Below, piece by piece: positions 5,129-41,018 of a stretch of 42,306 nt of DNA. Numbering within the stretch: position 1 is the stretch's first letter; each line of letters starts with the position of its first letter. The position numbers and the translations under genes are program-made. Below the pieces are notes generated by a model that did not search any database, was not told the origin of the DNA, and saw nothing but the letters and a program-made list of their open reading frames with translations. Source of the DNA: a virus; the IMG/VR virus record IMGVR_UViG_3300000228_000016, positions 1 through 42,306 of that record. One strand, written 5' to 3'.

Positions 5129-5509
5129 CTAAAGACTATCAGTCATATATTGATTAATAGTCTTTATTGCTGACTTGTAACCTATACATACACAAGCATA
5201 ATATCCAAGATAATGTAATCTCTTTAGTACATTAGCCTGTTCGTTTAAATGATCTGTTTTTAACTTCCCTTTTGTTGTAAATATATTTTGATTAGCTTTT
5301 TTAAGCTCTATTAACAAACCGTAATATTTTTTATTCGGAAATAAAATAATCAAGTCAGGCATCCCTCGACTGCTTTTTAATTTCGCAAACTTTTTAGCAA
5401 CATAAGGGTGTAGTGCTATTCCAGAAGCATCTGTTAAAAATATCACATCAGGGTAGAAAGTTTTTAAATAATCACAAACTTTAAAATGTACTATTTCTTC
5501 ACTATCCAT
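5129..5509 (-). CDS. VRR-NUC family nuclease
   Basis: A stand-alone VRR-NUC domain of the PD-(D/E)XK nuclease superfamily, 126 aa. Visible motifs: GMPDLIIL (Asp52), IELKK (Glu68, Lys70) and the downstream LNEQ (Gln91), in the usual order and spacing. These domains cut branched or structured DNA in repair and phage DNA processing. It is one of the few leftward genes in the left half and diverges from the operon starting at 5680. The 170 bases between hold a 42-base palindrome and an AATAACTGTTATT-like site, so the two transcripts are probably controlled from one region. Confidence 0.87.
   Translation of the reverse strand: MDSEEIVHFKVCDYLKTFYPDVIFLTDASGIALHPYVAKKFAKLKSSRGMPDLIILFPNKKYYGLLIELKKANQNIFTTKGKLKTDHLNEQANVLKRLHYLGYYACVCIGYKSAIKTINQYMTDSL
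5131..5165. terminator. Bidirectional terminator between convergent genes
   Basis: AAAGACTAT (5131-5139) pairs with ATAGTCTTT (5157-5165), loop of 17. A T-rich tail on one side and an A-rich one on the other suit both strands. It overlaps the last codons of the leftward nuclease gene. Confidence 0.55.
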
Positions 5510-6530: not shown

Positions 6531-6755
6531 ATGAAACAAGTTAAAATAGGAAAAGTTAAAGTAAAGCCAGTATTTGAAGAGATTGAGTACTGGATAAATG
6601 GCGAAAAATATTATCTAACAGCTATTGTTGTTGAATTTTTACCTGCTAACAATAAAGTTTACTTAAAGCTTAAAGTTAATAATCGGCTTAAATGTGATTA
6701 TGATACAAAAATAGTTTGTGATTATTTCAGAAGTTCAAGAGAGGATAATTTTTAA
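6531..6755 (+). CDS. Hypothetical protein, 74 aa
   Basis: ATG at 6531, 3 bases after the previous stop, with GAGGAAG upstream. Strand-rich and basic, perhaps a small beta-barrel. Its stop overlaps the next ATG by one base (TAATG). No family recognised; operon position links it to the modification genes. Confidence 0.7.
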   Translation: MKQVKIGKVKVKPVFEEIEYWINGEKYYLTAIVVEFLPANNKVYLKLKVNNRLKCDYDTKIVCDYFRSSREDNF

Positions 6756-7054
6756 TGTTTTTAGTTACATTACCTAATAACTCTTATAGAGAGTTTAACG
6801 ATTTTGAAGACGCAAAAAAAACAGCTATAGATCAATGTTTAAACTCAGGCGAAGAGATTAAAATATATCTTGCTTGTGAATCTGTTAAACCTGAGATTAA
6901 AGTCAAAGAATTTATTTTTTGGAAGCCTAAAGGCAATGTTTTACATGCAAACTCAGTTGGAACAATAATGAAAGATAACGCCTTACTTACAAACTCAGTT
7001 ATAGCAAATATAATTAAACCTATTGAAGATGATGATGATATGAGTCCTTTTTAA
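6755..7054 (+). CDS. Hypothetical protein, 99 aa
   Basis: ATG at 6755 with GAGAGG upstream. Alpha/beta appearance, ending in a run of acidic residues (EDDDDMSPF). TAATG overlap with the next gene. No family recognised. Confidence 0.7.
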   Translation: MFLVTLPNNSYREFNDFEDAKKTAIDQCLNSGEEIKIYLACESVKPEIKVKEFIFWKPKGNVLHANSVGTIMKDNALLTNSVIANIIKPIEDDDDMSPF

Positions 7055-7284
7055 TGAATGTAATTTTAGTAGATAAGAAAAATGTTAAACTAGGTGAACT
7101 TGATTTACATACTATTCCAAGAGTAGGGGAGTATTTACAGATACCTTTTAGAGCAGGATATTTAATCTATGATTCAATGGGTCGTGAATCAGTCACTTAT
7201 GAAGTTTTAACTATAGAACATAAAATACATAAACATCATGGTCAAGATATCATAATAAAGTTAGCAATCCTTAACTATGATTAA
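7054..7284 (+). CDS. Hypothetical beta-rich protein, 76 aa
   Basis: ATG at 7054 overlapping the previous stop. Alternating hydrophobic pattern, Pro/Gly turns (RVGEYLQIPF) and a His-rich segment (HKIHKHHG) suggest a small beta-barrel; similar small phage proteins of unknown role exist. Overlaps the methyltransferase start by eight bases. Confidence 0.7.
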   Translation: MNVILVDKKNVKLGELDLHTIPRVGEYLQIPFRAGYLIYDSMGRESVTYEVLTIEHKIHKHHGQDIIIKLAILNYD

Positions 7285-9466
7285 GCCTGAGTTTTATATC
7301 CCTACTATGCAAGAAATAGCTAATGTAAATCAAAACGGTTTTAAAGCTATAAGCACGTTCTCAGGAACAGGCGGATCATGTCTTGGATATAGAATGAGTG
7401 GATATAGTCTACTATGGGCTAATGAGTTTATTCCAGACGCTCAAACTTGCTATAAAATGAACCATAAAAATTCTATCCTTGATACTAGAGATATTAGGAT
7501 TATCCAACCCGATGATATTTTGAATAAATTAAAGCTAGATATTGGAGATATTGACTTGATGGATGGATCACCTCCTTGTTTTGAAAAGGACACTTTAATA
7601 ATGACATCAAAAGGCTTAAAGAAAATTCAAGATATTTCTTTAAATGATGAAGTACTAACTCATAATAATAGGTTTAAAAAAGTTATAGAGTTATTTAAAA
7701 AAGAATCAGAAACTATTAATATAATAAAAGTTTCTGGAATACCTGAGATAAAAGCTACTTCTGAACACCCTTTTTATGTTCGTGAATTTAAAAGAACATC
7801 AAAAACTATTGATAGTAAAAGAGTTAAGATGAAAAAATTTGATGTGCCGAAATGGATAAATGTAAGTGATTTAGAAAAAAATCATTATATAGGAATAGCT
7901 ATTAATAATAAATCTGAATTACCTTTATATGAAGGATTGGAATATAAAATAAATCAATCAGACACAACTATTATTAAAAATAATCTTTCTTTTGATAATC
8001 CTAACTTTTGGTGGATAGTTGGAAGATGGATAGGAGATGGATGGGTAAGAATTAAGCATTATGAAAATAAATCAAGTCGTTATGATGTAAAAATATGTTG
8101 TTCAAAAAAAGATAACGAGTTAAAGGAAATTACAGATAAATTAGAGGGTTTATATAAGTTCAATATATCTGAAAATAGAACAACCTACAGAGTAGAAATT
8201 TGTAATAAAGAACTAGCATATTTTTTAAGAACCTTTGGGACAAGTTGTTATGATAAAAGAATTGATGAAAAAATATTAAACTTGCCTGTGGATTTACTTA
8301 AATCTTTTCTTGATGGATATATAAGTGCTGATGGACATATTGAAAATATTAAAACAGGTACAGTTTTATATTCTTGTGCTTCAGCAAGTAAAGAGTTAAT
8401 TGTTGGATTAACCGCTTGTATTCATAAAGTTTATAAAACACACGTTAATTATCATCACTATAAAAGAAAAGGTACTCATAAAATCGAGGATAGAACTGTT
8501 AATGTTAATGATATTTTTTCCATCAGGTTTAAATTAACTAAAGACTTTAGAGATCAATCTTTTTATGAAAATGGATGTATATGGACACCTTTTAAAAGTA
8601 AACAGAATATAAACTGGAATGATTATGTTTACAACTTTGGTGTTGAAGAAGACGAATCTTATACTGTTTATAGCCTTATTGCCCATAATTGTGTTTCGTT
8701 CTCTGGAGCAGAGGGAAAAAAAGCTCAAACAAAATGGGGCGTTGTTAAAAAATATTCTACAGGAAAAAATAAACAGAGAACAGATGATTTATTTTTCCAA
8801 TACTCAAGACTATTAAAATATTTACAGCCTAAAGTTTTTGTTGCTGAAAATGTTGACGGATTGATTAAAAGTGATGCAAAAGGTTATTTTAATCTTATCT
8901 ACAAAGAGTTAACAGCATGTGGTTACAAAGTAAAAGCAAAGGTTTTAGATGCTCAGTATTTGGGAGTTCCACAAAGGCGTAAAAGATTAATTTTTATTGG
9001 AGTTAGAAACGATTTGAATATTGATATCGTATTTCCTGAACCATTGGATTATATATATAATTTTAAAGATGCTGTGAATAGCCTGTCAGATGATAGATCA
9101 GAATTTTTAAATATTAATCCCAATCTTACAGAAATGTATCATCTGACAGGCTATCAAGATAATTTCATGAAAGCAAGTCAAAAGATACATGGTAAAGATA
9201 GTTATTTCTCACATCGTAGGATGTCATGGGAGACACCGATTACTACTGTTACTCAAGGACGTGCTACTTTGTATCACCCTGATATCCCAAGAACACTAAC
9301 AATAAATGAAGTAAAAAGATGTTCTACCTTTCCTGATGATTTTATTTTAGTAGGAAATTTTACTAAAAAATGGGAACGAATCGGACGAGCTGTGCCTCCT
9401 ATTATGATGAGAGAAATCTCAAAAATTATTGCTGAAAAAATGCTAAGTAAGTTAAAAGGTTACTAA
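7277..9466 (+). CDS. DNA cytosine-C5 methyltransferase fold enzyme, intein-containing; candidate carboxymethyltransferase
   Basis: 729-aa precursor; removing the intein (residues 101-471) leaves 358 aa, normal for this family. Motif I FSGTGG (28-33), motif IV DGSPP joined after splicing to catalytic Cys472, ENV of motif VI, motif VIII PQRRKRLIFIG, motif IX RTLTINEVKRCSTFPDDF and motif X IGRAVPP are all present. In motif X the Asn of the usual IGNAVPP is Arg704 (codon CGA 9386-9388). C5 enzymes flip cytosine and transfer a group from an S-adenosyl cofactor. A positive charge at this cofactor-side position, together with the CmoA-like gene downstream, suggests carboxy-SAM as donor, giving 5-carboxymethylcytosine (inference). 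The target-recognition region is short, so the recognition site may be short. No paired restriction enzyme is visible. Confidence 0.93.
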   Translation: MIKPEFYIPTMQEIANVNQNGFKAISTFSGTGGSCLGYRMSGYSLLWANEFIPDAQTCYKMNHKNSILDTRDIRIIQPDDILNKLKLDIGDIDLMDGSPPCFEKDTLIMTSKGLKKIQDISLNDEVLTHNNRFKKVIELFKKESETINIIKVSGIPEIKATSEHPFYVREFKRTSKTIDSKRVKMKKFDVPKWINVSDLEKNHYIGIAINNKSELPLYEGLEYKINQSDTTIIKNNLSFDNPNFWWIVGRWIGDGWVRIKHYENKSSRYDVKICCSKKDNELKEITDKLEGLYKFNISENRTTYRVEICNKELAYFLRTFGTSCYDKRIDEKILNLPVDLLKSFLDGYISADGHIENIKTGTVLYSCASASKELIVGLTACIHKVYKTHVNYHHYKRKGTHKIEDRTVNVNDIFSIRFKLTKDFRDQSFYENGCIWTPFKSKQNINWNDYVYNFGVEEDESYTVYSLIAHNCVSFSGAEGKKAQTKWGVVKKYSTGKNKQRTDDLFFQYSRLLKYLQPKVFVAENVDGLIKSDAKGYFNLIYKELTACGYKVKAKVLDAQYLGVPQRRKRLIFIGVRNDLNIDIVFPEPLDYIYNFKDAVNSLSDDRSEFLNINPNLTEMYHLTGYQDNFMKASQKIHGKDSYFSHRRMSWETPITTVTQGRATLYHPDIPRTLTINEVKRCSTFPDDFILVGNFTKKWERIGRAVPPIMMREISKIIAEKMLSKLKGY
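7577..8689 (+). mobile_element. Intein with LAGLIDADG homing endonuclease, inserted at the catalytic Cys
   Basis: 371 aa from Cys1 (codon 7577-7579) to the final Asn (8687-8689). Block A starts CFEKDTLIMTSKGLKKI. Block B holds ATSEHPF (TxxHP). The C-terminal blocks read YTVYSLIAHN, followed by Cys as +1 extein residue. The middle carries two LAGLIDADG-type motifs: VGRWIGDGW and FLDGYISADG. Splicing joins DGSPP to CVSFSG, restoring the catalytic PPC motif. Both LAGLIDADG acidic residues are kept, so the endonuclease may be active and the element mobile. The reading frame is open throughout. Confidence 0.93.
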
Positions 9467-9468
9467 AA

Positions 9469-9843
9469 ATGTCAATGTTATTCCTTCCAAGACAAATAGA
9501 AGACACAGGTCTGACTTTTAAAATAGGAAAAATTATCCATTTTCTTGAGGTTAACTGTAGAAATTTTCCTGAAGAAATTTTTACAAAATCATATAAGTTA
9601 GGTAAAGGAAATGATTATTTAATCAAAGTTTTTATTCCAGTAGAACATATTGTTGAAATTCCAGATCAAAGTAGAGACAGAAGACTTAAAGAGTTTTTAG
9701 ATTCCCTCGGTCAAACAATAATGAAAAATATCTCTAATGAATATACTTATTCAAAACATGATCTTACCACTGGAGAATTAGATGAGTACGAGGATTTTAT
9801 GTTATTTAGAATTTTTGTTACCAAGAAGTTTATAATCTTATGA
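9469..9843 (+). CDS. Hypothetical protein, 124 aa, between methyltransferase and PP-loop enzyme
   Basis: ATG at 9469, two bases after the methyltransferase stop; the stop TGA (9841-9843) overlaps the next ATG. Alpha/beta in appearance with a hydrophobic C-terminal strand; no cysteine motif, no membrane helix, no family recognised. Its place between two putative modification enzymes makes it a candidate accessory subunit, for example for substrate delivery; this rests on context alone. Confidence 0.7.
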   Translation: MSMLFLPRQIEDTGLTFKIGKIIHFLEVNCRNFPEEIFTKSYKLGKGNDYLIKVFIPVEHIVEIPDQSRDRRLKEFLDSLGQTIMKNISNEYTYSKHDLTTGELDEYEDFMLFRIFVTKKFIIL

Positions 9844-10691
9844 TGTTAAAGTCAGTTACTCCCAAAGGTTACGAAGCTATAAGAAAGTTAATGATAAAAA
9901 GGGTAGAAGAAATAGATCCTAATCATAATACAGCAATAGCATTAAGTGGCGGAGTTGATTCTACTGCTATATTATTTGCATTTTTAGAAAGTGGACGTAA
10001 GCCTGACTGTTATACTTTTAGACTTACTAACTATAAATCAGATGACTATAAATCTGCCAAGCTTTTATGTAAAGCATTTGGATTAAAATTCCATGAAATA
10101 CTTGTACCATCTGATGTGGAAAGCATTGTTAATGATATTGTTGAGATATTGCCTTATTGTGCTTATGTGAGAAAAACAATTATTCAGTGCATGATCCCCT
10201 GGTTATATATTTATCCAAAATTAGAGCAGGATCAAATAGTTTGCGGTTTCAAAGCTGATGATTTATTTCAAACATTCAAAGATTCACAGATGGACTTAAG
10301 AAAATACGGTGAGGAAAAAATACGAGAAACAACAAGATCAGGTTCTCATAATGAATGGACTGATGAAACATCTGTTTTTAATATTATGAAATTTGCCAGT
10401 CATTTTAATAAAAAATGTATAGATTTTTATTTTGACAAAGATATTATAAACGAGTTTTTAGATTATGAAATCCAAGCACTTCATAAACCTTTTGAAAAAG
10501 CTTTTTTAGTTGGAGCATTTAGTGACTATTTCCAAAAAGGCAGTTTCTATAGAAAAAGGAGTAATTATCAAATAAACTCAAGATTGAGAGAAGCCCATGA
10601 GAGACTGCTTAAATCTGAATATAACATCAATGATTCTAAAGCAGTAATAGGTATATACAATAGCATAGCAAGAAAGATGGAGTTAATATGA
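9840..10691 (+). CDS. Asparagine-synthetase-like PP-loop ATP pyrophosphatase, candidate DNA-base amidase-forming enzyme
   Basis: 283 aa. The PP-loop SGGVDST (residues 36-42) binds the pyrophosphate of ATP. The segment QIVCGFKADDLF (133-143) matches the pattern of asparagine synthetase C-terminal domains (G-x-(G/A)-D-E-L-F), and a KPFEKAFL segment near 220 fits the later conserved region. Asparagine synthetases adenylate a carboxylate and replace AMP with ammonia. The N-terminal glutaminase domain is missing, so ammonia or another amine must come from elsewhere. Between the C5 methyltransferase and the CmoA-like gene, it could adenylate and amidate a carboxymethyl group on cytosine (inference). 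Other PP-loop families (QueC, PAPS reductase, TilS) fit less well. Overlaps both neighbours by four bases. Confidence 0.85.
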   Translation: MMLKSVTPKGYEAIRKLMIKRVEEIDPNHNTAIALSGGVDSTAILFAFLESGRKPDCYTFRLTNYKSDDYKSAKLLCKAFGLKFHEILVPSDVESIVNDIVEILPYCAYVRKTIIQCMIPWLYIYPKLEQDQIVCGFKADDLFQTFKDSQMDLRKYGEEKIRETTRSGSHNEWTDETSVFNIMKFASHFNKKCIDFYFDKDIINEFLDYEIQALHKPFEKAFLVGAFSDYFQKGSFYRKRSNYQINSRLREAHERLLKSEYNINDSKAVIGIYNSIARKMELI

Positions 10692-11242
10692 TTACTGTAA
10701 TAACAGGTACAATGTTCTCAGGAAAAACTACTGAACTATTACAACAGATAAACCTAGCAAAAAAAAGAATTGTTCTTAAAGATTCCGATCAAGATATAAA
10801 AATATTTAAGCCTAGTTTTGATAATAGATATAAAGAAAACTATATTGTTACTCACGATAAAAAAGAGATTGAAGCTGTACCTGTACGTAATGCTATTGAT
10901 ATATTAAAGCACTGTGATACTTTTACAAATGATTATGTTTTTATAGATGAAGCCCAGTTCTTTAAAAAAGATATTGTTACTGTCGCTCTAAGATTAAGTA
11001 ACATGGTTAATAATGTTATGCTTGTTTGTCTGGAACATGATTATCTACATAGACCGTTTGGATATAGTAATAAGTTGATGAAAATAGCTGATGAAATAAT
11101 CATAAAAGAAATTAACTGTATGACCCCTGATTGCAAAAATAAAGCTACTCACAATAAAAGATTGATAAACGACAAAGTACAATTCTATCTAGGCTCTGAT
11201 AAACAATATCAAGCAGTCTGTGAGGAGCATTATGACCATTGA
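10688..11242 (+). CDS. tdk: Thymidine kinase (TK1 type)
   Basis: 184 aa. Phosphorylates thymidine to dTMP with ATP. P-loop GTMFSGKT (residues 7-14), FIDEAQFF (Walker B, about residues 84-91), and a C-terminal zinc site with CMTPDC plus a later C-x2-H. This is the full TK1 order, slightly shorter than the bacterial norm. The substrate-binding loop near the C-terminus (IGSDKQYQAVC-like) is present. ATGA overlap with the PP-loop enzyme puts it in the same operon; it would supply pyrimidine nucleotides for phage DNA. Confidence 0.93.
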   Translation: MITVITGTMFSGKTTELLQQINLAKKRIVLKDSDQDIKIFKPSFDNRYKENYIVTHDKKEIEAVPVRNAIDILKHCDTFTNDYVFIDEAQFFKKDIVTVALRLSNMVNNVMLVCLEHDYLHRPFGYSNKLMKIADEIIIKEINCMTPDCKNKATHNKRLINDKVQFYLGSDKQYQAVCEEHYDH

Positions 11243-11297
11243 TTACGATACTATGATAATGATTTTCTTTCTTGCTTTAATATTATTTTTGGATTAA
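11232..11297 (+). CDS. Tiny hydrophobic peptide, 21 aa
   Basis: ATG at 11232 overlapping the thymidine kinase end, with GAGGAG at 11222-11227 at good spacing. A short acidic start then one hydrophobic helix of about 13 residues. The good ribosome site is the main support. Confidence 0.45.
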   Translation: MTIDYDTMIMIFFLALILFLD

Positions 11298-11303
11298 TTA
11301 TAA

Positions 11304-11465
11304 ATGACAGAAATTATTGTGGTTATTATTAATATTTTGTTCATAGCTTATTTTTTAAGTGGTGGAAGTGGAATAGTAGAATATGACTTTATTATGATGA
11401 TTATTTATCTTTTACTTATGTCTTATTTTGTCACTGGTGGAAATCGAGCAGTTGACGATGACTAA
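11304..11465 (+). CDS. Small two-helix membrane protein with internal repeat, 53 aa
   Basis: ATG at 11304. Two hydrophobic helices, each followed by a similar segment: YFLSGGSGIVEYD and YFVTGGNRAVDDD. The protein is thus a tandem duplication of a helix plus a YFxxGGxxxV loop. Its end overlaps the CmoA-like start by eight bases, suggesting coupled translation. No family recognised; a holin-like or membrane-modifying role is possible but unproven. Confidence 0.55.
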   Translation: MTEIIVVIINILFIAYFLSGGSGIVEYDFIMMIIYLLLMSYFVTGGNRAVDDD

Positions 11466-12165
11466 AAAAACAAGTGTTGGACATTTACCTGTTCAAGAGA
11501 AATGGGAATTTGATAAAACAGTTACAGAATGTTTTGATGATATGCTTGAAAGATCTATACCTCAGTATGCTCTCATGCGTTCCTTAGTAAACGATTTAGT
11601 AAAAAGCTTTTATTATCCTAGAATAAGAATTTTAGACTTAGGAAGCTCAAAAGGTGGATCAATAGAAAGCTTAGTTAATGATCTTGACGCTCAGTTTATT
11701 TTATCGGAAGTTTCTAAACCTATGATTGAAGTTTTAGAGAATAAATTCCCTAATAAAGAAAAAGTAAAAATTATTACCGATGATATTAGAGAAAAATTTC
11801 CTTATTGTAATGCTAATATTACTTTATCTATCCTTACTATTCAGTTTATACCGATTGAGTATAGACAAGATATCATTCAAAGAATTTATGACAATCTCTC
11901 ATTCGGTGGAGTTTTTATATTTGTAGAAAAAGTACTTGGAAGTAATGCCTTGATTAATAAGACTTTAAATGATAACTATTATAATATGAAGTCCATAAAT
12001 GGTTATTCAGAAGAGGATATCCAAAGAAAGAAACTAGCTTTAGAAGGTGTTCTCGTTCCAGTAACAGCAAAATGGAATGAGAACTTATTAGAACAAGCAG
12101 GGTTTAGAAATGTCGATGTATTTTACCGCTGTCTGTGCTTTTCAGGATGGATAGCAATAAAATGA
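11458..12165 (+). CDS. CmoA-like carboxy-S-adenosylmethionine synthase
   Basis: 235 aa from ATG 11458; a TTG at 11428 without ribosome site is less likely. It follows E. coli CmoA along most of its length: WEFDKTVTECFDDMLERSIP near the start, motif I LDLGSSKGGS (59-68), ILTIQFIP (125-132), NGYSEEDIQRKK (181-192) and a CFSGWIAIK end. CmoA converts SAM and prephenate to carboxy-SAM, normally for tRNA wobble uridine modification by CmoB. As I recall, Arg199 of E. coli CmoA holds the carboxylate; the aligned residue here is Lys192, keeping the charge. No CmoB is present, so the product probably feeds another enzyme, most likely the C5 methyltransferase in the same operon (inference). The alternative is an ordinary methyltransferase of this branch. 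Confidence 0.85.
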   Translation: MTKKTSVGHLPVQEKWEFDKTVTECFDDMLERSIPQYALMRSLVNDLVKSFYYPRIRILDLGSSKGGSIESLVNDLDAQFILSEVSKPMIEVLENKFPNKEKVKIITDDIREKFPYCNANITLSILTIQFIPIEYRQDIIQRIYDNLSFGGVFIFVEKVLGSNALINKTLNDNYYNMKSINGYSEEDIQRKKLALEGVLVPVTAKWNENLLEQAGFRNVDVFYRCLCFSGWIAIK

Positions 12166-12449
12166 GTGAAATAGAATTTAAAATAGGTGATATTATCATC
12201 CATAAAAAGCCTTATGATGGAGAAGCTCCTTATAAAATAATATCCGAAAAAGATAAACATAACTTTTATAAGTGCATGCCTTTAAATACAGATAATTTTT
12301 TATTTGATGATGATTCAGTGACTTGGTTAGCTCATTATCAAGAACTTGAGTGTTATGAGAAGATAGTAAACTTTAATTTATGGTTATATCATAATAAGCA
12401 AAAGATACTTACAAAGCTTGATAGATGGCATTTAGAGAGATGTTATTAA
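12162..12449 (+). CDS. Hypothetical protein, 95 aa
   Basis: ATG at 12162 overlaps the previous stop (ATGA); upstream in-frame GTG and ATG codons exist but lack ribosome sites. Begins with a beta-rich segment (FKIGDIIIHKK) typical of small SH3-like barrels, ends in a Trp-rich helix. No family recognised. Confidence 0.65.
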   Translation: MSEIEFKIGDIIIHKKPYDGEAPYKIISEKDKHNFYKCMPLNTDNFLFDDDSVTWLAHYQELECYEKIVNFNLWLYHNKQKILTKLDRWHLERCY

Positions 12450-23235: not shown

Positions 23236-23985
23236 ATGACCATTAATAACTGGGATAAACAAACTGTAGAATTTTTGGATGAAAAATGTTTTAAAAATAG
23301 AATAACCAAAGTAGAAAAAAAACTTGTTGAGAGTTTAAAATTAATTCCTGATTTAAAAATAATAGATTACGGTTGTGGAACAGGAAGACTTGTTGAAATA
23401 CTTAAAACCCTTTATCCAGACTTTAATATTAAAAATAATTATATAGGTGTCGATCAATCCCAAGAAATGATCCTAAAAGCTAAAGAAAAATACCCTGATT
23501 TAGAATTTTCTTTATTAGATCCATTCTTTCAACCTATCAAAGATTTTAACACTTTAATATCTTTGGATGTATTACAACATCAAAACAAGCCTATGGAGTT
23601 CCTAGATATAATATTTGCTTTAGAAACTGACAATGTTTTTATAGAAACTTGGTCAAAAGAAAACGGACAAAATTTAGAGCATACAGAGAATATTATCACT
23701 CTACAATCAGGTAATCAATTTTACGAAAATATTTATAGTTTAAAAGCTATAGAAGAACTAGGTGCAATTTATGGAATGAATATTGACTTTGAAAATGAGT
23801 GTAATGCTTATGATACAACCCTTTTTTATTATACTGGAATAAGTGAAGTTCTAGCTTTTTACACTGGTTACTCAGTTCAAGAAATAGATGACTTTACTAA
23901 TGAATCAATGAAAGCTGAAAAAGTCATTGTAGGCACAGATATTAAAGAAACATTACAGTTTTTAAAGAATACAGATATAAAATAA
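23236..23985 (+). CDS. Class I SAM-dependent methyltransferase
   Basis: 249 aa. Rossmann motif I IIDYGCGTGRLVEIL (about residues 42-56), then IGVDQSQEMI with the acidic SAM-ribose residue, and a later LISLDVLQH. Substrate unknown; small-molecule or sugar methyltransferases look alike. GAGGAG at 23223-23228 ahead of ATG 23236, and the stop overlaps the glycosyltransferase start (TAATG), so the two act together. Their position inside the tail operon suggests modification of a virion protein or host glycan. Confidence 0.87.
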   Translation: MTINNWDKQTVEFLDEKCFKNRITKVEKKLVESLKLIPDLKIIDYGCGTGRLVEILKTLYPDFNIKNNYIGVDQSQEMILKAKEKYPDLEFSLLDPFFQPIKDFNTLISLDVLQHQNKPMEFLDIIFALETDNVFIETWSKENGQNLEHTENIITLQSGNQFYENIYSLKAIEELGAIYGMNIDFENECNAYDTTLFYYTGISEVLAFYTGYSVQEIDDFTNESMKAEKVIVGTDIKETLQFLKNTDIK

Positions 23986-25151
23986 TGAAAAAAAGGATAT
24001 TACATATAACACATGGCTTTTATCCTAATAAGGGATTTGAAGTATATTTAAAAAATCTAATTAATAACTTACCTGAATATAATCATTATGTAACTGTCTT
24101 TCCTAATAAAAACAATGACATAGGTTTATCAAGTAAAGTAAATGTTATTGAAATAAGCAGTTTAAACGATGTTAAAAATATAGTTGATACTTTTGATATA
24201 AAAATAGTAAACATTCATTGGACAGGAGCAGAGGCACTAAATAGTGATGCTTATTTATTACAGATAAAAGACAAAGAATATACAGCATATAATAATACTA
24301 GCAAATACCCTGATGATATTGATAATAATCCTTATGGATATGTAAATATTCCTTATCTCTGGGAAACATACATAGAAACAGGCAACATTATTAATGTAAC
24401 TTATCCTTGTTTAAAATCAGTGAAAATCAAAGAAAAAATAGTTAATCCGAATAGACCTAGATTTATCATCACTTCCCATAGTGATTTTAAATTACCTAGT
24501 TATTTGGATTTTCCTGTTATTGATAAAATTATTTCAGTCTCTAAAAAAAGTATGTTTAAACAGCTTCATGTTAATACACAGCATGAAGTTATATATAATG
24601 GTGTTCCTGATGAAATTCCTGATAATGTACTTCAAAAATCTATTAAAAGAAAATCTCAAGACCATAAAAAATTAAAAGCAGTCTGGGTTGGAATGTTAGC
24701 AAAATATGATGAGACAATTTACCAAGTAATAAAAGAAAATAAAGAAATTAATGAGTTATACGATTTCTTTTATCTAGGCACAGGGACACTGGATGAAAAT
24801 CCATTAAGTAATCATCATTTCCTCGGTGAAATTCCACATAAAAAAGTTTTAGATTTTATTTCAGACTGTGACGTATTCTTATACCCTAGTTCTATTGATT
24901 CATTCGGAATTGCTTTAGTTGAAGCAATGAGCTTAGGTCTAATGTGTATTACTTCAAAAGAAGTAGAAGAAGTGATATTTAATTCAGGTCTAATCTGTAA
25001 ATCAAAAAAGGATTATTTGAATAATCTTTTATCAGTTAGTAAAAATAAATCAGCCAAGTTTATTTATGGAAGTAAAGCAATAGACAGGGTTAAAGAAAAT
25101 TTTGTTTTATCCAAGATGATTGAGAGCTATAAAAAGGTATTTGACTTATGA
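23985..25151 (+). CDS. Glycosyltransferase, GT4-like (GT-B fold)
   Basis: 388 aa. N-terminal RILHITHGFYPNKG and C-terminal VFLYPSSIDSFGIALVEAMSLG with the E-x7-E-like nucleotide-sugar motif mark a retaining GT-B enzyme. The middle holds VWVGMLAKYDE typical of the hinge region. Full length. Likely substrates: tail protein, surface sugar, or modified DNA base; the tail context favours the first. Stop overlaps the tape measure ATG. Confidence 0.87.
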   Translation: MKKRILHITHGFYPNKGFEVYLKNLINNLPEYNHYVTVFPNKNNDIGLSSKVNVIEISSLNDVKNIVDTFDIKIVNIHWTGAEALNSDAYLLQIKDKEYTAYNNTSKYPDDIDNNPYGYVNIPYLWETYIETGNIINVTYPCLKSVKIKEKIVNPNRPRFIITSHSDFKLPSYLDFPVIDKIISVSKKSMFKQLHVNTQHEVIYNGVPDEIPDNVLQKSIKRKSQDHKKLKAVWVGMLAKYDETIYQVIKENKEINELYDFFYLGTGTLDENPLSNHHFLGEIPHKKVLDFISDCDVFLYPSSIDSFGIALVEAMSLGLMCITSKEVEEVIFNSGLICKSKKDYLNNLLSVSKNKSAKFIYGSKAIDRVKENFVLSKMIESYKKVFDL

Positions 25152-39324: not shown

Positions 39325-39957
39325 TTGGCTTTAACTGGAAAAAATATAATATTAGTTGATGATGATTCAATAATACAGGTAATGATTAAGCAAATTCTAA
39401 TAATGCTTAATTGTGATGATTACGAGGTATGTAAAAGTGTTGAAGATGCAATTTTAAAATGTGAAGGTACAACATTTGACTTTGTAATCCTAGATATAAA
39501 TTTTCATGGAACAATGGCAGCAGAATATCAGCCACAGAAATCTGGAATAGATATGATTAAGTATTTATATCAAAAAAAAAGACCTGTTCCTGTTTTAGTT
39601 TTCGCTTCTGATATAGATAGCTCTAGTTTTGATTTATTCAGATACGAAAATAATCATTTGACAATATGTTATTTAGAGAAACCATCTAGTCAGATTGAAA
39701 TATCAAAAGCCATAAAAAATTGTTTAGAAATCCATTCTTGCAAAGATTTAAGAGAAGTAAAATTTCCTTTAATGGCTAAGTCTATGGAGGATTTAAAAAA
39801 AGAAATAGAGGAAATGAAGGAAACCACTATTAAAAATATAGCTGAAAATATTTTTATAGAGTTTCTCTCAACCAACAGAGCTAAAATAATAACTGCATTA
39901 GGAGCAATAAGTGCAGGTCTATTTACTTATTATATGACTATATTAAAAACTACTTAA
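39325..39957 (+). CDS. Response-regulator receiver domain with C-terminal membrane segment
   Basis: 210 aa. Residues 5-130 form a complete receiver: acidic pocket VDDD (11-14), phosphoacceptor Asp57 in FVILDINF, Ser95 in VFAS and Lys119 in LEKP. No DNA-binding output domain follows; instead a coiled coil (153-172) and one membrane helix (about 186-206, ITALGAISAGLFTYYM). TTG start at 39325, because the next ATG would remove the acidic pocket; AGGG at 39309-39312. It follows the endolysin, where a holin is expected. A phosphorylation-gated membrane protein, perhaps a regulated holin, is an attractive but unproven idea. Convergent with the ParB-like gene; the stops overlap. Confidence 0.83.
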   Translation: MALTGKNIILVDDDSIIQVMIKQILIMLNCDDYEVCKSVEDAILKCEGTTFDFVILDINFHGTMAAEYQPQKSGIDMIKYLYQKKRPVPVLVFASDIDSSSFDLFRYENNHLTICYLEKPSSQIEISKAIKNCLEIHSCKDLREVKFPLMAKSMEDLKKEIEEMKETTIKNIAENIFIEFLSTNRAKIITALGAISAGLFTYYMTILKTT

Positions 39958-41018
39958 ACCTCTGTAACTATTAAGCTTTCAATTTCCATTAATAACTCTA
40001 TATCTTGAATTGCTTCTACCATTGCTATTACTTTAACTTTATAGTTTTTGAAAAATTCTGTTTGTTCTGCAGGTAAAACTTCATTATTAAATACATATTC
40101 TTCCTGCGGTTTACTACTAAAAAGAAAATCCATTTGTTCAAATTTTTCAGCAGTAAAAGGCAATATTTTTAATTCAGAATCAAAATCTTTATACTCAAGT
40201 TTTTTTATATTCTCATTATCTTTTATTTTTTCTCTAAGATCATTTACTTGGAGTGTTATTAATTCTTCCTGTTGGTCAATATCCATTTTTGATAATTTAA
40301 AAGCTGTATTTATAGATATTTCATTATTACTAACTTTTTTGATAACATCAGGTATAGCATTTTTTTCTATACTTTCTATTCTATGTATAGTATCATGTGA
40401 AATATCAGCTATTTTAGCCAGTTCTTTTTTAGTATCAATAGGAGTAATCGTTCCCTTTTTACCTTGATTTAATTTTGCTTTTTGAGAAACAAGCTTTTTT
40501 AATTGAAGTGCATATTTACCACGTTCATATACAGTTAAATTTCTTCTTTCCAACTGGTGTTTAATGATAAATATTTTTACGTCTTCTTCAGTATCAAAAA
40601 ACTCAATATGTATAAAGCATGGTATTTTTAATTCTGTACAAATTTGATGTCTGTTATGACCATCTACTAAAAAATATCTATCTTGACTTCTCCAGACAAC
40701 TAAGGGAGTTATACAACCTCTTTCTTCTATATCTTTTCTTAATCCATCGTGTTCATCTTTGGATTGTCTTCTTAGTAAATTTTTGAAAGGAGGATAAATA
40801 TAAATTTCTTTATCTTTCCAAGGCTCAATAGTTATAAATTCATTGTCATTTTCTTTTTTAATTTGCCTACTGGGTATATACTCGCTGTGATTAAAAGTTT
40901 TTAGTTCTTGTCTTTTTTCTTCTTCTTCTTTAAAGATGTCTAACTTTGACTTATTAAAATAACTGTTATTATTATTAAAACTTTCTTTACTTGGTCTTTC
41001 ATTCTTATATGTTGACAT
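39954..41018 (-). CDS. ParB-like DNA-binding protein (ParB/Srx domain plus HTH)
   Basis: 354 aa. A low-complexity Asn/Lys-rich N-terminus, then a ParB/Srx-like domain at about 75-185 (LRKDIEERGCITPLVVW, FLVDGHNRHQIC), and a helix-turn-helix (KKELAKIADISHDTIHRIESI, about 195-218). Helical C-terminus. It has DGHNR where partition ParB proteins have GERR, so CTP-dependent clamp function is uncertain; plasmid and phage regulators of this type exist. No ParA gene in the window. The palindrome AATAACNGTTATT occurs in its upstream region and inside its first codons as a 25-base inverted repeat, so autoregulation is likely. Confidence 0.82.
   Translation of the reverse strand: MSTYKNERPSKESFNNNNSYFNKSKLDIFKEEEEKRQELKTFNHSEYIPSRQIKKENDNEFITIEPWKDKEIYIYPPFKNLLRRQSKDEHDGLRKDIEERGCITPLVVWRSQDRYFLVDGHNRHQICTELKIPCFIHIEFFDTEEDVKIFIIKHQLERRNLTVYERGKYALQLKKLVSQKAKLNQGKKGTITPIDTKKELAKIADISHDTIHRIESIEKNAIPDVIKKVSNNEISINTAFKLSKMDIDQQEELITLQVNDLREKIKDNENIKKLEYKDFDSELKILPFTAEKFEQMDFLFSSKPQEEYVFNNEVLPAEQTEFFKNYKVKVIAMVEAIQDIELLMEIESLIVTEV
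40949..40973 (-). promoter_or_regulatory. Palindromic site within the start of the ParB-like gene
   Basis: Holds AATAACTGTTATT (40958-40970). All 25 bases are the reverse complement of 41055-41079. Here they encode part of the Asn-rich N-terminus, so coding sequence and binding site may overlap. Confidence 0.6.

Follow-up and report, generated by a model that had tools for sequence, protein, structure and literature searches.

The window analysed here, the 42,306-base linear virus record IMGVR_UViG_3300000228_000016 of IMG/VR taken over its full length, carries on its plus strand a block of genes which, judged from its sequence, is very probably a phage operon for DNA hypermodification by CmoA, CmoX and CmoY. 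The block runs in the order ParBc, CmoX, an open reading frame (ORF) of 124 amino acids (aa), CmoY, thymidine kinase, an ORF of 53 aa and CmoA. CmoX, the 124-aa ORF, CmoY and the thymidine kinase gene are separated by 2-base gaps or overlap by 4 bases (Table 1). An earlier reading of the letters alone (the sequence-only reading) had placed a CmoA-like enzyme, a C5-cytosine methyltransferase and an AsnB-like PP-loop enzyme in this block; all three genes were located and family searches agree with the assignments.

The pathway idea is correct but has appeared in print before. Yang et al. (Nat Commun, December 2025; PMC12783734) described a CmoA-CmoX-CmoY pathway in Synechococcus phage S-B43, in which CmoA yields carboxy-S-adenosylmethionine (carboxy-SAM), CmoX uses it to form 5-carboxymethylcytosine (5cxmC) at GC sites and CmoY adds glycine; the glycine amide of 5cxmC was detected in virion DNA. 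The same paper lists 5,615 CmoX candidates, many of which are neighboured by CmoA, a ligase and ParBc. The route from carboxy-SAM over a C5 carboxymethyl group to an amide, as drawn in the sequence-only reading, matches this pathway and is not new, and ammonia as its amine is unlikely. S-B43 (MN018232, PDB 8YF3) and the window have in common the three enzymes, a CmoX with the carboxy-SAM contacts and the selectivity arginine, a CmoY without glutaminase domain, the lack of CmoB and an often adjoining ParBc gene. The gene order differs, being CmoA-CmoY-CmoX in S-B43 and CmoX-CmoY-CmoA in the window, and only the window CmoX has an intein. A pathway that reached print as late as December 2025 thereby gains independent support from raw sequence and extends to a low-GC phage lineage (29.5% GC in the window). 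The additions are an intein at the catalytic cysteine, findings that make ammonia unlikely, an outlying CmoY clade and a gene, seen in the two nearest relatives, that is a candidate for making the amine.

In the proposed mechanism CmoA would convert SAM and prephenate, the latter necessarily derived from the host, into carboxy-SAM. The CmoX precursor would excise its intein and join SPP to the catalytic cysteine, and the mature enzyme, whose R704 would discriminate in favour of carboxy-SAM against SAM, would carboxymethylate the phage DNA at C5 of cytosine; the sequence context of this transfer is a matter of inference. CmoY would adenylate the carboxylate with adenosine triphosphate (ATP) and couple it to an amine, for which an amino acid is the likeliest candidate, and the resulting amide-bearing cytosine should block restriction enzymes. 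As the sequence-only reading had stated, no CmoB is seen; the model TIGR00452 has no match in the record, which is possibly a fragment.

The closest solved structure for the window CmoX is SpCmoX (8yf3, E value 9.8e-55), followed by HaeIII (1.4e-24). The residues which contact carboxy-SAM in SpCmoX (F25, E47, F48, D69, C98 and R350) correspond to F28, E50, F51, D72, C472 and R704 of the window protein and are all kept. The catalytic motif SPPC is formed by GSPP and C472 once the intein is removed. R704 sits in the motif IGRAVPP where HhaI has Asn304; its SpCmoX counterpart, R350, binds carboxy-SAM by the carboxyl group, and the altered cofactor-side residue named in the sequence-only reading is thus found. 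SpCmoX used carboxy-SAM only, and its mutation R350N abolished activity (PMC12783734). Among aligned C-terminal segments from IMG/VR and phage loci the arginine is kept in 113 of 116; the exceptions are the loci L085, with Leu, and L089, with Asn, besides the ordinary methylase of phage Lana.

Two further arrangements were seen at CmoX-related loci. Staphylococcus phage vB-SscS-F1 (L009) carries CmoA and CmoY beside a C5-methylase without the CmoX arginine (motif VGGVIN), which either holds carboxy-SAM in another way or has a different function. At L101:5384-7966 one continuous frame encodes a methylase with the CmoX arginine together with a glutaminase-type AsnB-like ligase.

Residues 101-471 of the CmoX precursor are an intein. 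The sequence-only reading identified the methyltransferase gene rightly, but overlooked this insertion as well as the thymidine kinase gene between CmoY and CmoA. The segment matches the Pfam models Intein_splicing (5e-9) and LAGLIDADG_3 (1.4e-6), the models for the N- and C-terminal splicing regions (TIGR01445 and TIGR01443) are above cut-off, and two LAGLIDADG-type motifs are present (WWIVGRWIGDGWV and FLDGYISADGHI). The landmarks C101, a TxxH block (TSEHPF) and HN471 followed by C472 are found as well. The intein is inserted precisely at the junction of SPP and the catalytic cysteine, and the precursor should therefore be inactive until spliced; by its sequence, splicing would restore a CmoX of 358 aa.

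The nearest relatives of this intein in an IMG/VR intein scan (identity of 41% at most) all lie directly before the cysteine of C5-methyltransferase-like proteins, and these hosts are methyltransferases of the ordinary sort, which have Asn and not Arg wherever the motif is readable. Inteins of plain phage C5-cytosine methyltransferases (such as L176, L177, L181, TH47 and Lana) share the insertion point and are 31-41% identical to the window intein. The lineage at this site occurs in many phage C5-methyltransferases (L176-L194, L215, TH47 (L012) and Lana (L013)). The CmoX proteins of Yersinia phage fHe-Yen9-02 and of Erwinia phages (such as pEa_SNUABM_5 and Yoloswag) have, like that of the window, an intein at the SPP/C junction together with the arginine. 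However, identity between their inteins and that of the window is only 23-24%, theirs are without recognisable LAGLIDADG acidic motifs (e.g. VANG), and in these phages CmoA and CmoY are found about 18 kb from CmoX. The simplest history would be that of separate acquisitions from a site-specific intein lineage resident in phage C5-methyltransferases. The catalytic cysteine of phage enzymes that modify cytosine, among them carboxymethyltransferases, is a recurrent site of mobile inteins; work on genes of that kind must either allow for splicing during expression or use constructs from which the intein has been removed. A literature search returned no paper describing an intein at the catalytic cysteine of such enzymes. 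The word intein is absent from PMC12783734, whose SPPC filter would not expose one because the intein too begins with a cysteine.

The window CmoA aligns end to end with the enzymes from E. coli and H. influenzae. Its reading frame begins with TTG 11428, but ATG 11458 agrees better with where proteins of the family start. With the ligand residues of E. coli CmoA taken from PMC3663124, Y39, D62, S66, D117 and E164 are conserved as Y47, D70, S74, D119 and E167, while D89, N90 and N132 are changed to Glu, Val and Ile.

Co-occurrence of the genes in related phages, a check set beforehand, was counted at 44 loci where CmoX is flanked on either side by 3 kb or more, and proved strong. CmoA is present at 42 of these, a ParBc gene at 39 and a CmoY-type ligase at 30. 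The two loci that lack CmoA belong to the type known from Erwinia phages, where the other genes stand at a distance in the same genome, as described above. Starting from CmoA, for which the IMG/VR loci were gathered by an alignment scan (a scan with a single CmoA sequence was too specific and gave nothing), CmoX lies within the fetched stretch at at least 25 of 78 loci, a lower bound because many contigs are short.

The PP-loop motif SGGxDS of CmoY reads SGGVDS at residues 36-41. A glutaminase domain was found neither in CmoY nor elsewhere in the record, in agreement with the sequence-only reading. An AlphaFold2 model of CmoY (25-sequence input) has a predicted local distance difference test score (pLDDT) of 93.6 and a predicted template modelling score (pTM) of 0.91. 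In Foldseek this model aligns with beta-lactam synthetase, carbapenam synthetase and AsnB at template modelling (TM) scores of 0.65-0.75 (0.73-0.75 for the synthetase domain of beta-lactam synthetase/AsnB), but with tRNA (transfer RNA) thiolases and LarE at about 0.3-0.4 (tRNA thiolase about 0.35). The predicted fold is that of the synthetase domain of beta-lactam synthetase and AsnB, i.e. of an ATP-dependent amide former and not of a tRNA thiolase.

Several findings weigh against a working operon of the S-B43 type. The window CmoA reaches 148.6 bits with TIGR00740, below the equivalog cut-off of 193.3; as CmoA from L008 and from L173, the nearest relatives of the window, does not reach it either, the low score reads as divergence of a phage branch and not as exclusion. 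Arg199, which binds the carboxyl group in E. coli CmoA, is Lys202 in the window protein, and the identity to S-B43 CmoA is 28%. Among the aligned rows this column holds Arg in 96 and Lys in 10, others differ, and the active S-B43 CmoA has Glu, so that the column cannot exclude activity. The window CmoY is only 26% identical to S-B43 CmoY and lies in a separate clade (100/99). Its motifs differ from those on the S-B43 side, with KTIIQC for KTxxEC and YQINSRLREAH for NLQLGDSxI. Glycine use is for these reasons possible but not implied, while a CmoY-like working stands. Finally, the proline at intein position -1 might slow splicing.

We regard it as nearly an even proposition that the amine is not glycine but a different amino acid or an amine derived from one, made in relatives by a dedicated dehydrogenase. 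In the tree the window CmoY groups with those of L173 and L008 (100/98) within a clade of seven rows (100/99), and S-B43 CmoY falls among the 24 other rows. Ligase clusters with differing active-site residues were also noted in PMC12783734. L008 and L173, the IMG/VR contigs 3300021400_000468 and 3300032038_001076, are closest to the window by CmoY (43-46%) and share with it an arrangement ParBc-CmoX-x-CmoY-CmoA followed by terminase genes. Unlike in the window, their CmoX is without intein and no thymidine kinase gene stands between CmoY and CmoA. The gene x (L008:5121-5993, L173:7099-7968), at the place of the 124-aa ORF of the window, encodes an ornithine cyclodeaminase (OCD)/mu-crystallin-like dehydrogenase of 289-290 aa. 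Models for ornithine cyclodeaminase/mu-crystallin and for pyrroline-2-carboxylate reductase match the L008 protein (Pfam 1e-7, NCBIfam 6e-10), and models for alanine/aspartate dehydrogenase weakly match that of L173. This protein may be the maker of the amine that is joined to 5cxmC. However, no such dehydrogenase is found in the window, and the substrate need not change with sequence divergence. Lying outside the biochemically known clade, these CmoY proteins are a place where new amide-modified bases may be found. A scan of GTDB genomes for CmoY relatives found none and hence gives no host or prophage link.

L008 also contains, upstream of ParBc and CmoX (L008:2225-3037), a short protein with a methionine adenosyltransferase N-terminal domain, which may fit a role in SAM supply.

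Tentatively, and with less confidence than in a non-glycine amine as such, it may be proposed that the seven-row clade joins 5cxmC to an amine beyond glycine and ammonia, which would give an undescribed hypermodified cytosine, and that at the same time CmoX gains its activity only when the intein at its nucleophile splices out, which would tie the modification to splicing conditions.

The coupling of ammonia, named first in the sequence-only reading with another amine as the alternative, would give a primary amide (+57 Da over deoxycytidine). CmoY belongs to the AsnB family, and free ammonia could serve without a glutaminase domain, as by NH3-dependent NAD synthetase. The ammonia-site residue of AsnB, which we take to be Glu348, lies in the segment SGEGSDE, and its position was located by alignment to human ASNS. 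At that position the window CmoY has Phe137 (CGFKADD). SGE or TGE is kept there in all 15 phage ligase ORFs of at least 460 aa, which are glutaminase-bearing, whereas the Glu is missing in 25 of 25 aligned short CmoY proteins and also in the glycine ligase of S-B43. Its absence from the window and from all aligned short CmoY proteins makes ammonia unlikely. Glutaminase-bearing ligases form another cluster and were proposed as the ammonia users, and the sole short CmoY that was assayed yields the glycine amide (PMC12783734). We consider ammonia improbable here, and glycine or some other amino acid is the likeliest partner of CmoY in the CmoA-CmoX-CmoY operon.

It is more improbable still that CmoX is an ordinary SAM-using methyltransferase forming 5-methylcytosine and that CmoA and CmoY serve tRNA, a small molecule or another purpose. 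CmoA homologues do occur apart from CmoX. Alcaligenes phage Afa-NA1 (L004) has one, 47% identical to that of the window, and the annotation shows neither CmoX nor CmoY up to about 7 kb away. Another lies in the human faecal scaffold MT835562 (L005:11950-12744) amid NAD-type reductases, small membrane methyltransferase-like proteins and ATP-binding cassette exporters, a bacterial-looking cluster in which carboxy-SAM possibly enters a secondary metabolite pathway. In the window, however, R704 is present, the counterpart of the arginine that is lost in the inactive R350N variant of the strictly carboxy-SAM-using SpCmoX, and the adjacency of the genes, their co-occurrence and the missing CmoB match point to the carboxymethylating pathway. 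An operon inactivated by a decayed, non-splicing intein, which would leave the enzyme halves split directly before the nucleophile, is just as hard to credit, as the frame is open throughout, C1, TSEHPF, HN and the +1 cysteine are present, the splicing models are above cut-off and a same-site intein persists in 48 Erwinia/Yersinia/Dickeya-type records with full-length match.

Table 1. Features of the putative CmoA-CmoX-CmoY operon in the window
Feature	Position	Strand	Evidence
ParBc-domain protein, 206 aa	5908..6528	+	ParB_N 2e-4 (below cut-off); phrog_620 ParB-like 3e-36
CmoX precursor, 729 aa (358 aa after predicted splicing)	7277..9466	+	Pfam DNA_methylase 7e-51; best structure 8yf3
CmoX N-extein, end ...DLMDGSPP	7277..7576	+	alignment with intein-less CmoX
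Intein, 371 aa (C1 ... HN)	7577..8689	+	Pfam Intein_splicing, LAGLIDADG_3; TIGR01445, TIGR01443
Catalytic Cys, precursor C472 = C-extein +1 residue	8690..8692	+	aligned with SpCmoX C98
R704, equivalent of SpCmoX R350 (HhaI Asn304)	9386..9388	+	structure-hit alignment, CmoX alignment
124-aa ORF without family match; overlaps CmoY start	9469..9843	+	ORF list, family searches
Predicted ATP-dependent amide ligase of the CmoY type, 283 aa, with a synthetase domain alone	9840..10691	+	Asn_synthase 2.7e-8; predicted fold
Thymidine kinase	10688..11242	+	TK 1.3e-36
CmoA, predicted carboxy-SAM synthase	11458..12165	+	TIGR00740 2.3e-43; 4gek/1im8 E about 1e-28

The small ORFs which the sequence-only reading had suggested as accessories (6531-7284, 9469-9843 and 12135-12449) gave no match in the family searches, and by its frequency near CmoX the ParBc gene is supported in their place. 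The 124-aa ORF was rejected as an accessory, having neither a family nor a homologue: no relative was found among 50,697 phage records or in an IMG/VR scan, and it is unrelated to the ORF of 150 aa that PaBG has between its CmoA and CmoY genes. The thymidine kinase gene is absent at the other 110 CmoX loci; it was for that reason rejected as a pathway gene and is probably outside the pathway.

Upstream of the operon a VRR-NUC nuclease is encoded on the opposite strand (5129-5509, minus). Downstream follows a block of head-tail genes with terminase (13056), portal (14569) and major head protein (18026). Between a tail protein (22451) and a 2017-aa ORF starting at 25148, the region 23236-25151 encodes a methyltransferase and a GT4-like glycosyltransferase, for which virion or DNA glycosylation is possible. 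This second methyltransferase (23236-23985) was considered as CmoB or as a second CmoA and rejected, having generic matches only. Near the right end a second ParB-like protein (39954-41018, minus) and a response-regulator-like protein (39325-39957) are encoded. No tRNA genes were found in the window. Over its whole length the dinucleotide CG reaches 0.5 of expectation and GC 1.12.

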